Assembly: GCA_022495005.1 (NCBI GenBank) | Contig: JAGYXB010000106.1 | Location: 1-64,000 of the forward strand | Direction of reading: 5' to 3' | DNA length: 64,000 bases | From: Rhyacophila brunnea | Lineage: Eukaryota; Arthropoda; Insecta; Trichoptera; Rhyacophilidae | Shown here: positions 39,501 through 45,500 of the stretch, piece after piece | How the letters are laid out: each line of letters begins with the position of its first letter | Position numbering within the stretch: position 1 is the stretch's first letter | Made by a program: the position numbers and the translations under genes | Notes under the pieces: model-generated | Told to the model about the DNA's origin: nothing | What the model saw: only the letters and a program-made list of their open reading frames with translations | Databases searched by the model: none

Positions 39501-42500
39501 TACAAAAATATGATATTTTTCCACCATGTCATAATTTATCACTGGAGGTTGCTTAGAATATCAAGCAATTAAGTACATATCGATACACCAGTTCAATAGG
39601 GGAACAACTCATAAAACCTTGTTCCGAGATAATGGCGTTTGAATTTTTTGCAGTAATTCTTATTTTAATTTTAAAGCCTTGATTTCGATAAAAGTGTATG
39701 TTTTTTTGTATTTGATTTAGTGGAATTCATCAATGCACAATGAAATTGTACATTTTAATAACGAATTAACAAATAAATTTGATTATATAATGGAATTACT
39801 GATTAATCTTAGAAAGGATTATTCGATTTTATGACACATTGAAGAAATTTTTAATTATTTTTTTTGCTGAATTATAAAGAGAAGACCTTTCTACATCAAA
39901 TGGCATTCTTAACTCAAAACCTTTAAATTTGTTCCCCTATTGAACTGGTGTATCGATATTTTATATGTATAAACTCTTTCATTTAATTAATGTTTGCATG
40001 GAGAGAATAGTGTCCAAACGGTGGTGTTGAACTGTAATTTCAAGATAGATAGTTTTAAATGTCCCATTGATCATTTACAAGGTGCCAGATTTCTGCTTTT
40101 TTACTGAACCGTGAATCATATTTACACTTCTTATCAATTCAGTGGATAGCAGCAATGATCCAACACACTTATACACAAAAAAGAATTTTTGTAATATCGT
40201 TACTAGGTCCTCCATTTTGGGTGACAATATATTAACATCGACATCAGTGTTTACAAGTTACAAAAATGTTTTTATTGTTTCTACTTACTTTAAAATGGAA
40301 ATTTACTTTATATTCGCTCACAAAAAGATATTTTTTTATATGTTGCGTTTGAGACCTACTGAAAACATCACAATAACATCGGTTGAGCCAAAGTAAATAT
40401 TTGGCGATGATAGAACACGTTTATCGATTGTATTATTTTTTTGAGGTTGAAAGATTTCAAATTTATTTAAACAAATACCGAACCTCAATCTTTATTACCT
40501 GCCTACATGCTGTGATCGGAATAGATATCTTCATGTTGGAGAATCTATTTTAATATGGGTATTTATAGAAAATAATGTTTGTAGGATTTAAAGCCGTCGA
40601 ATATTGCTGTCAACGAGGATTGTGAATTGAAAATATTGGACTTTGGATTGGCAAGACCTACAGAAAATGAAATGACCGGATATGTAGCTACTCGGTGACT
40701 ATTTAAAACAATTTATTTCTAATGTTATTACAATTATTTATTATTTTTCCAAAAGTGTTGGGGCAGAATCAGAAGAATGTTTACTTATTGCAATTTCGTA
40801 AATTTTCTACCGTGTATCGCTCCCCTTGGTACCTACAGGATACCTTACTTTACTGCACCCTGTTTGTTTCCAACTTTGGACACAGGGCACAAATGCACAC
40901 AATCTATGTTATGGTTAGTTTAGTTTTATTAGATAATCAATAAATTGTATAAATTGTAGATGGTATCGGGCGCCTGAGATTATGTTAAACTGGATGCATT
41001 ACAATCAAACTGTGGACATTTGGTCGGTCGGATGCATCATGGCTGAATTACTCACAGGCAGAACCTTATTTCCCGGCACGGATCGTATCCTTTTATTTAT
41101 TTTTAGTTATTATAATTTCAACACACTCTCGTTACAATTTACTTATTCACTTGCATATATATTAGAAACATTCTAAAAGCTTTGTAAATATCACACTGTC
41201 ATGTTGCAAGTAGCTGAAAACTCCATTTTATACATTGGCCGCTCCTCATTGAGGTAGGCGTGAATACTTTTAAAATATTCATGTTTAAAATGGGTTGTTG
41301 ATATTTAACATCAAAATAATAATTACACCAACTGCTAAAGTGGTATAAGGTATTCGAACTCGATGTGCGCTTGTCTTAAAGGAAATAGTATAATTTTTAA
41401 TTTTCTTTATTGTTTGTATTCTTTTGATAATCATGTTTTATCATATTACTACTAACAATTTTCTACTGTAATAGAATCTATAAAAAGTGCCAACTATTGC
41501 TTTATGATATGTATGTGTATGTACCTACTGCTTTTCATAATCACTACTGCAAAAAGCATGAATCCTATATTTGTATGCTTGAAGGAAACTATAATTTCTA
41601 ATTTTATCCGCTATCGTAATGTTTTTACACCCCAACAAAATCAACAAAATTTAAATGAACGTAATAGAATTTATGTCTTACAAGATATTGATCCATTTAT
41701 AAAACAGGATTACATAATAATTGTGACCACAACACTCAAAATAACTTAATAATTAATATAAGGCATAGTCTCAACATCCTCAAATGAAAATGTAATTCTA
41801 TTATTACTTCGTATAATTGCACAATTATATTGGATTCCTCAAAATTACTATTGATTAATTAATAATAAACTATTGAAAAAATATAATGTTCATTCTCGTG
41901 ATAGGTTGTCTTGTCAAATCACGAAATTGTCAATCAGTTTGATTGAATGTTATAAATTTTATTCCATGGAATTAATTGCTAAATTGGTCCATACAATGAA
42001 TGAATATTGATTGGCATCTTTATGCCGTGCCCGCAATAATGCTGAATTATATATATATATACCTATAATTATTATTTTAAACAAGTTTATTGAATATACA
42101 GTAAGCTCATGTAATCATATCCTCGGCCTTAATTCTTGCATCAGATATCCATCAGCTGAACTTGATTATGGAAGTCCTCGGAACGCCGAGTGATGAATTT
42201 ATGCAGAGAATATCATCCGAGTCTGTGAGTAATATATTGCTATACGAAGCATTTGCTTGATATTATATTAAATCATCCCCGAAAGCTAAGTATATTCCAT
42301 ATTCATACCTACATAATATTATGAACAACAATATATTAAATTACATAATAAGAATCTTTATGGTTAGTTGCACATTATCTTTTGGATACTAACCTGCTTC
42401 ATCTCATAGAGTATAAATATAATGTATCTATCAGTGGCGAAGGGTGTCTTTTGGAAAGAAGTAGGCTGTGGAGACAGTACACTTGTCAGATATACTTACG

Positions 42501-45500
42501 GGAAAATAATAAGATAATCCGATAACACTACTGATGAATATGACACAAAAATTAAGCAATGAGTATGAATTATGTATTTTCTTAAACATTTATAAACGTA
42601 ACATATGCTCAAAATATATATTTTTTTTTTTTTTTGAATTATTAATAACCATGTCCTTGCTTTTTCGTACAAGGTGGTTTGTTAGTAATTTTGAACAATC
42701 ACAAACACCCAGGCTTTGAGAAAAACACATAAATGTTTTTGTCATGACCGGGAATCGAACCCAGAACTCTCGGGTGGAAGGCCAGCGCCTTATCCACTGC
42801 ACCACGAGAGCCGCCGCTCAAAATATATTGTCATCTTTGAAAAAATCCTTTGTTGTGTATCTGTTCCATAACAATGTATAATTTAACCTGTAAAACTAGG
42901 CATTTTAAAATACTTCTATATTTAAAACACACAGACTTAGGTACAATATCAGATCTTAAGGGGGAGAGGCATGCCAGCAGAGAACCTAGCGGAAAAATAC
43001 GAAGCTTGCAATTTGAGATTTTTTTTTGATAATTTATAATTTCAACTATTAATTCATAAATATGTATCTGAAAACATTAAAAAGATTTTTTACTTTTTTT
43101 TTTTGTGAATTCATTGCAGGGTCATATCTTATTATTATTATTATATATTATGGTCATATTTATTATTAAAACTTAGTTTACCATTTAGATTTTTGACTAA
43201 TTCATCGTTTTAATATTTGTTCTTTCTCTCTCTCGGCTCTCATTTATATGTTTTAAATATTAATTAATTATTCTGACGATAGATTGGTTCCCGCACACGT
43301 TTTTATTTATTTAAATTTAAATACTTTCTATCTATTCTTTGAAGGTAGGCTTCAAATAATCGCCTACTATGGAACCTTCACCACTGGTATCTATATTCTA
43401 TGTACCTGTCTTGCAAAGTTATTAATACATACTGAACACTAAATAGAAAAATATTTTCATTCATTCACATTTTAAAAACCATTCGAATATTTTCTAAAAT
43501 CTTTGTCAATCATCACCTCCTTTGACTTGATACAAAACAGTTGAAGTATTTATTTTTGACTTGCTGTAAACGTAAACATGCTTACATAGGCGACACATTT
43601 TTATTATCTGTTTTAAGAATTTGAATGATCTGTGCTTTGGATTGTTTTTTCTTAATAAGCATGCCCATGCCTATTTGGTATTCTCTGTTTTTCCCATTGT
43701 AAATTATCTAAAATGGCCTAATTATTGTAGATTAAACATTTTGTAAGTAGGTATATTGAAGGCTTGCATAACCTTAACTGCTATTTGTTCAGACATCGAT
43801 CATCTTACGAGGATATTGTTTTTATGCGGTACACCAGAAAAGGATACAATTGACAAAATAACCAGCGAGGAGGTAATGAAACCGTAATTACTTCTCTCAA
43901 TGATTATCAAACACGAGAAACATAAAAAATACATTTTGAACAGTATTTAATAAAATTACTATGTGACACATTATTTTTGTTTGTTGCAAATTTGTTGTTT
44001 CTTCCAAGAATATGTTTAAAAACATAAACCATCCCCCAAAGTTTTAATCTATTTCCTTGATGATAAAGAATAATATCCTGCAGAAGATACAATTTTTCGT
44101 GGCTGATAGAACTTTCACACAATCAATTCAAATTTAAGTAATTTAATAATGTTGGAAGTAAACAAGGTTAAATAAAAAACTTCAAACTGACTCATCTGAA
44201 CGGCATTGTCTGCTTGCACTAACACTATTATTCTCTCTCGTGTTCCTGTTTTAAATCTACTGTTTTAAATCTACGGTGATACTAATTTGCACTATTTTGC
44301 AAATGATCTTCATTAACCCATTGGAGACAATCTATGCAGGACATGGTAAAAATAAAACATTTATAAACATTTCTTTTATTTTGTTAACAGTCAATTCATG
44401 GTGGAACTGCATTGTAATTATTGTAACAATTTATAAACATATTTAGATTTTTTTTAAAGTAGAAATTACTTGATAATATTAAATCCATCATTTTTTGGCA
44501 TTAGTTATATAGAGTCTGGTATGTTTTTTTTATGAATTATTTGATATATAAAATCTATTTTTATTTAAATTTGTCTATTAATTATCGGTAGGTATAAGGT
44601 GTTTAATACATTGGACGCTAAAGATGCGTCTAGCGCGTAATGATTAAGAGAGTAAAAAACATATAATTATTCTTCTTATAACTTCTAAATATCTTGAAGA
44701 GTATTATATTTAGCTCCAGTTTTAGTATAATATGTTTCTTTTATTATTTAATTATATCATAGACTTTGTCATTTGTATAAAAAAGGTTAAAAAAACACAA
44801 AAAACTATATTTGACATGTTTTCTTGATTCCATTGATACACAAAATTAACTTAGAAATAAATAAATAATAGAACAATTCAATACCTATAAATATTTAAAG
44901 GATTTATTTGAATTAAATGGATAATAAATGAGTTATAACAATTTTAGTAGGTAATCAGTGTGCCTTTTTAAGTGGTCCTGAAAAATTTTCCTTGTCTCCA
45001 ATGGGTTAATATTAGCAAAATAGTCAATGCTTTCCTTATTAAAATAATAATATGTAAATAAAGCGTTGTAGCGCTGATACTATTTCACACTTAACTACCT
45101 ATAGTAATTTAGAATGATTTAAAAACAAATCTATTGAAACAAATATTTAATATTTACTCTTGATATTAAAATCAACTCGGTTGCCGGAGACCAATCAACA
45201 GTGTGTGAGAGGCCAAAGGAAATTGTTATTTTATTTTACAACGTTTTTATTAGGTTGTATTTTTGTTTGTCCGGTGGTTGTTTATCCAGTACAAATCTTG
45301 CAATCGATTTTTAACTAACTTCCCGACTAGTTAGACATTTGAAACTTTTAGAATATATCAGAACACGATTCCAATGCATTCTTTTAATACTTTTTAGCCA
45401 TCTTTAAGCAGAATTGAATTCATTTTCAGTTAATTCTGTTTTGTATGGAAAGTTGTTGCATAAAAATCCGTAAAAAGTAAAAGACTATTATTGGTTGCTA

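Follow-up and report, generated by a model that had tools for sequence, protein, structure and literature searches.

The 64-kilobase (kb) stretch of Rhyacophila brunnea DNA analyzed here (contig JAGYXB010000106.1, positions 1 to 64,000; hereafter the window) carries, on its plus strand, a complete gene for the MAP kinase p38. Its coding span runs about 14 kb from the ATG at 33510 to the TGA at 47731-47733 and is modeled as eight coding exons, each either constant or an alternative slot; the slot between exons 5 and 7 can be filled by either of two homologous exons, 6a and 6b (Table 1). Joined with 6a or with 6b, the coding sequence is open and yields a p38 of 357 amino acids (aa). Both forms contain a full kinase domain, with Pfam Pkinase scores of 222 bits (6a form) and 218.6 bits (6b form), and in the PDB the 6b form comes closest to structures of human MAPK14. 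The full kinase domain, the TGY motif and the closest PDB entries, which are p38 kinases, place the protein in the p38 family.

A preliminary description of this DNA had proposed a pair of homologous, same-phase exons of 80 nucleotides (nt), lying 1568 base pairs (bp) apart with good splice sites, whose joint inclusion or joint omission would break the reading frame. Each of these points was recovered. Both exons lie at the proposed coordinates, share length and phase, are flanked by AG and GT, and are separated by an intron of 1568 bp. Including 6a and 6b together places the first stop at codon 273, 264 nt upstream of the last junction, and omitting both places it at codon 285, 68 nt upstream of that junction. 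Adjacent, equal in length and phase, and frame-breaking when doubled or skipped, the two exons have the properties of a homologous mutually exclusive pair. Between them, 10 of 27 residues are identical, as are 40 of 80 bases. The earlier estimate that 6b differs at about half of its positions was therefore too low, since 17 of the 27 residues differ.

This likeness did not arise by chance. The window holds 73 open AG-N80-GT stretches (39 on the plus strand and 34 on the minus strand); scored against 6a, the exon itself reaches 136, 6b reaches 50, and the next best of the 73 stretches reaches 6. None of 2000 introns simulated with a first-order Markov model attained 50, the top score being 21. 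The 6a/6b exon pair is real.

Table 1. Coding exons and splice signals of the p38 gene, in window coordinates
Feature	Position	Strand	Basis
Coding exon 1, ATG at 33510	33510..33613	+	Open reading frame joins exon 2; donor GTATGT
Exon 2	36069..36205	+	Open reading frame joining
Exon 3	38613..38806	+	Open reading frame joining
Exon 4, TGY activation motif	40585..40694	+	Open reading frame joining, translation
Exon 5, ends FPGTD plus first base (C) of the following codon	40960..41084	+	Open reading frame joining
U12-type 5' splice site GTATCCTTT, C at -1	41085..41093	+	Consensus match; remaining p38 donors do not match
U12-type branch-site heptamer CCTTAAT, for 6a	42127..42133	+	Correct spacing before AG
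Alternative exon 6a, 80 nt	42145..42224	+	AG/GT flanks, open after exon 5 C
U2-type donor of 6a, GTGAGT	42225..42230	+	Motif
U12-type branch-site heptamer CCTTAAC, for 6b	43772..43778	+	Spacing before AG
Alternative exon 6b, 80 nt	43793..43872	+	AG/GT flanks, open after exon 5 C; database homologues
U2-type donor of 6b, AG/GTAATG	43873..43878	+	Motif
Exon 7, acceptor without CCTTAAY	46667..46919	+	Open reading frame joining, motif scan
Last coding exon, up to TGA	47663..47733	+	Open reading frame joining

The two segment versions in other arthropods

Three protein searches, each retaining the best 120 of about 8000 scored proteins, returned 202 different proteins, whose alternative segments were assigned to types by a rule set by eye. 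These comprised 70 segments of type a (as in 6a), 73 of type b (as in 6b), 30 of the vertebrate CSBP2 type, 4 of the vertebrate CSBP1 type and 25 others. Among the matches listed, both a and b occur in Hemiptera, Hymenoptera, Lepidoptera, Diptera, mayflies, thrips and crustaceans, and b additionally occurs in a stick insect, a cricket, damselflies, a caddisfly, spiders and scorpion-like sequences. Among the sequences retrieved, type b is thus common to chelicerates, crustaceans and insects, and a is found in insects and crustaceans. In a FastTree analysis of p38 outside the exon, the window sequence grouped with a caddisfly, and moths and butterflies were its neighbors, though support was weak (0.76 and 0.83); by plain identity, the nearest of 31 proteins compared was that of a flea (0.896). 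The p38 sequence thus indicates kinship with Lepidoptera or Trichoptera and nothing narrower.

An all-pairs comparison revealed seven protein sets that are identical throughout the 310 residues compared outside the exon yet diverge at 13-19 of its 27 residues, which makes this an alternative exon, not a second gene. The sets are Harpegnathos P0063/P0116, Neodiprion P0003/P0046, Bicyclus P0052/P0095, Graphocephala P0002/P0047, Homalodisca P0010/P0057, the crab-like pair P0111/P0198, with two more differences at residues 9 and 364, outside the 310-residue stretch, and the water-flea-like P0127 with P0137-P0140. Additionally, several full-length open reading frames of 6b type lie on contigs of only about 1.3-2.2 kb, compared with the 14-kb gene described here, and such contigs would therefore derive from spliced RNA. 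Of eight stitched gene predictions examined, six place 6a before 6b, namely those of five Lepidoptera and of Daphnia galeata, and the remaining two contain 6b alone. The NCBI p38 isoforms X1 and X2 of many insects and crustaceans carry the same two exon versions, there by automatic annotation only.

A tree of the segment was built from 65 sequences over 27 columns; 60 were drawn from the 202 database proteins, two were exons 6a and 6b of the window, and three were human p38 paralogues. Type a formed one clade (100/99) and type b another (96/91). The alignment that the preliminary description had called for, asking whether segments cluster by type or by species, thus answers in favor of type, and the pair is much too ancient to be an oddity of a single species.

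Given that 6b lies nearer than 6a to the p38 of brachiopods, molluscs and a hemichordate, 6a is the more changed copy relative to these outgroups. The brachiopod Lingula segment is identical to 6b at 16 of 27 residues and to 6a at 12 of 27. Group means over the 27 residues follow suit, with b at 15.3 to lophotrochozoans and 15.4 to the hemichordate, a at 12.8 and 13.5, and a group c (decapod, isopod and chelicerate) closer still at 17.3 and 18.9. Exon 6a therefore looks like the more derived copy, and casting 6b as the aberrant version does not hold, even though 6b has changed faster among the seven species with both. Across the 21 pairs of these species (insects and the water-flea-like set), mean identity was 0.65 for 6b, 0.82 for 6a and 0.89 for the remaining protein, a rate difference that also runs counter to a simple reading of 6a as derived.

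Further segment versions were observed outside the insects. Decapods show three, namely b, c and an a-like version (P0111/P0198, P0119, P0154, P0165, P0180), suggesting a cluster of three alternative exons; among the proteins retrieved, no single species showed all three. Two isoforms of the spider Parasteatoda, P0169 and P0171, differ at 11 of 27 segment residues and elsewhere solely beyond the point where residue 337 begins a second stretch of difference; chelicerates therefore possess their own segment pair together with an alternative C-terminus.

Splice-site signals and exclusivity

The exon 5 donor, ATC/GTATCCTTTT, matches the U12 5' splice-site consensus across eight bases, and the base preceding the cut is C instead of G. 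In the window, RTATCCTT occurs four times on the plus strand and three times on the minus strand, and GTATCCTT occurs once per strand. The U12 branch site reads TCCTTAAC and is located 10-20 nt upstream of the acceptor. From 41085 to 46667, exactly two AGs, the 6a and 6b acceptors, are preceded by CCTTAAY at branch-site distance; over the whole window, the motif stands in the branch place at 10 of 6091 AGs (both strands, with the 6a and 6b acceptors counted in). The exon 7 acceptor looks U2-type. By motif, the locus thus combines a U12 donor upstream, two U12 acceptors, two U2 donors and a U2 acceptor downstream, the layout expected of U12/U2 incompatibility. The literature describes a bias against G at the last exon base of GT-AG U12 introns (PMC10853781), a general incompatibility of U12 and U2 splice sites (PMC3584512) and, in the work of Hatje and colleagues, five human exon clusters with U2/U12 incompatibility (PMC5740500).

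These signals suggest how Rhyacophila brunnea may use both exons while keeping them apart. Exon 5 would be spliced to one of 6a and 6b by the minor spliceosome, after which joining of the chosen exon to exon 7 would fall to the major spliceosome. Because U12 and U2 sites are generally incompatible, the 6a-6b join (U2 donor to U12 acceptor) and the 5-7 join (U12 donor to U2 acceptor) would both be disfavored. Wrong products that leak through would be frameshifted and end early, making them candidates for nonsense-mediated decay, and the frameshift would serve as a second safeguard. We consider it likely that the window holds one p38 gene with homologous, mutually exclusive exons 6a and 6b kept exclusive by U12/U2 site incompatibility, a probable mechanism that the preliminary description overlooked.

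Several observations weigh against this interpretation. The U12 and U2 classes were assigned by consensus motif at this one locus, and CCTTAAY is also similar to the U2 branch site. Incompatibility is known to leak, as in U12 small nuclear RNA-mutant cells, where MAPK12 splices a U2 donor to a U12 acceptor (PMC8329584). Furthermore, both human MAPK14 exons are listed as responding to U2AF, a U2-type factor (PMC5224494), and 6b changes faster than 6a. Exclusivity could alternatively stem from other regulators or merely from the decay of frameshifted products, as an 80-nt exon does not preserve the reading frame and each of the wrong products terminates early; however, this leaves unexplained why the U12 match falls at the exon 5 donor and at both acceptors and at no other p38 site, and we regard it as improbable. 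It is highly improbable that 6b is a copy in decay that Rhyacophila brunnea seldom or never uses, since, despite evolving faster than 6a, it is open, exactly 80 nt long and equipped with good splice sites and a U12 branch motif, is 0.70-0.74 identical to the 6b of five other insects, and has annotated counterparts among the isoforms of many relatives.

The U12 introns of JNK and of this p38 gene presumably lie at the same protein position. Exons 6a and 6b of JNK (MAPK8/9) resemble the present pair in that a related kinase combines exon choice with a U12-type intron and U2-type sites (PMC3584512, PMC8329584). In JNK, however, the U12-type donors of the alternative exons compete (PMC8329584), whereas the p38 gene has one U12 donor and two U12 acceptors and therefore lacks a competing donor pair.

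The p38 segment and the vertebrate CSBP1/CSBP2 pair

In models of the two Homalodisca isoforms, the exon covers helix 224-235, helix 240-243 and the start of helix 249-257, which we take to be alphaG and the beginning of the MAPK insert. The vertebrate CSBP alternatives affect activity and substrate specificity (PMC1431701), and a title in the reference list of that paper states that a yeast hog1 deletion is complemented by CSBP1, not by CSBP2. By analogy, we infer that the 6a and 6b kinases may differ in their partners, with altered docking or substrate choice. In human cells, p38 stabilizes U6atac and raises minor-intron splicing (PMC3728624); feedback of p38 on its own minor intron may therefore occur in insects.

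The preliminary description had also placed the pair at the position of the alternative exons of human MAPK14. This holds for the segment, as fish p38alpha isoforms of CSBP1-like and CSBP2-like type differ in the same 27 residues; orthology to CSBP1 and CSBP2 is neither supported nor rejected by the 27-column tree. The arthropod and vertebrate systems thus share the gene family, the segment and the presence of two homologous versions, whereas neither vertebrate form has a clear orthologue among the arthropod versions, the vertebrate side being compared by protein. Structures are available for both vertebrate forms, 1R39 from human and 3OHT from salmon (PMC4465641). The salmon structure represents the CSBP1-type version and matches the fish isoform P0156.

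We favor, with moderate confidence, the view that arthropods and vertebrates each duplicated the exon in tandem, independently, at one predisposed site. An exon lying between a U12 acceptor and a U2 donor would render any tandem copy mutually exclusive from birth, and both acceptors described here are U12-like; MAPK14 has likewise been called U12-regulated (PMC12637451, preprint). Moreover, arthropods contain at least three variants, b with c (the crab-like pair), b with a different second version (Parasteatoda) and a (the shrimp Palaemon), which argues that copies arise more than once. The trees neither support nor reject independent duplication: a tree in which the vertebrate types by themselves form a single clade is worse by 8.98 log units, with a p value of 0.259 in the approximately unbiased (AU) test. 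None of the nine groupings that needed an AU test was rejected over the 27 columns (p 0.259 to 0.553).

The arthropod and vertebrate pairs could instead be one ancient switch, with 6a corresponding to CSBP2, present in the bilaterian ancestor and lost or remodeled elsewhere. Of the groups compared, type a is nearest to the vertebrate CSBP2 type, with a mean of 15.9 of 27 residues, compared with 12.2-13.5 for b, c, lophotrochozoans and the hemichordate. The segment tree places a beside CSBP2 and p38beta (91/81 and 95/76, not starred) and CSBP1 elsewhere on a long branch, and the AU tests do not reject this scenario. However, the changes to L at position 7 and to S at position 27 carry most of the link between a and CSBP2, and no a-like segment was seen in chelicerate, brachiopod, mollusc or hemichordate proteins among the matches listed. 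The union of b with CSBP1 is neither rejected nor supported by the AU test on 27 columns, and their mean identity of 10.3 of 27 falls below that of b with every other group except human p38delta. A single ancient switch is therefore a tentative alternative that we consider unlikely.

Human p38gamma (MAPK12) scores 164.0 bits against the CSBP1-type 3OHT versus 152.1 bits against CSBP2-type human p38alpha, which hints that the vertebrate pair is older than the paralogue split. On this view, an exon pair would already have existed, and each vertebrate paralogue would have retained a different version of it. Extended to its limit, the ancient-switch scenario would have a minor-spliceosome p38 switch already in the bilaterian ancestor, with 6a descending from a CSBP2-type exon and p38 helping to splice its own isoform-defining intron, a feedback maintained for more than 500 million years; this fuller version seems more doubtful still.

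To our knowledge, fruit flies have lost 6b. No retrieved protein is named as Drosophila, and the flies Hermetia and Condylostylus carry b among the matches listed. Loss of minor introns is reported to be faster in dipterans than in other insects (PMC6865273), and comparisons between human and Drosophila could therefore overlook the pair. A term search of the main text of two human-fly studies (PMC5740500, PMC9741552) did not find MAPK14 named, and the titles listed in searches of one open library included none on an arthropod p38 exon switch or its U12 signals, which is not proof of absence. Given that p38 is a central stress kinase, a conserved, apparently hard-wired choice in arthropods would, if true, mean that insect work on one isoform covers half of the system. 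It would also tie the identity of the p38 isoform to the minor spliceosome, which the kinase reportedly stimulates in human cells. Furthermore, the layout offers a simple rule for repeated exon duplication at this spot, and the comparison with the vertebrate pair provides a clean test case for convergence versus deep homology.

Neighboring elements

Several repeats and coding fragments accompany the p38 gene. Just downstream, an inverted repeat (50232-50777 and 51093-51638) has 546-nt arms that are 95% complementary, with nested inverted repeats extending across 49923-51638; the structure looks like a palindromic mobile element. Another inverted-repeat element (37656-37796 and 37953-38089) occupies the intron after p38 exon 2. 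On the minus strand, an open reading frame at 24217-24669 encodes a partial DDE transposase domain (PF01359, E 7.9e-29), mariner-like by family name, and one of 434 aa at 62180-63484 contains an RNase H domain (PF00075, E 5.3e-12) and is probably the end of a retrotransposon without long terminal repeats. Coding stretches for C2H2 zinc fingers lie downstream of p38 on the opposite strand, at 53630-55690.

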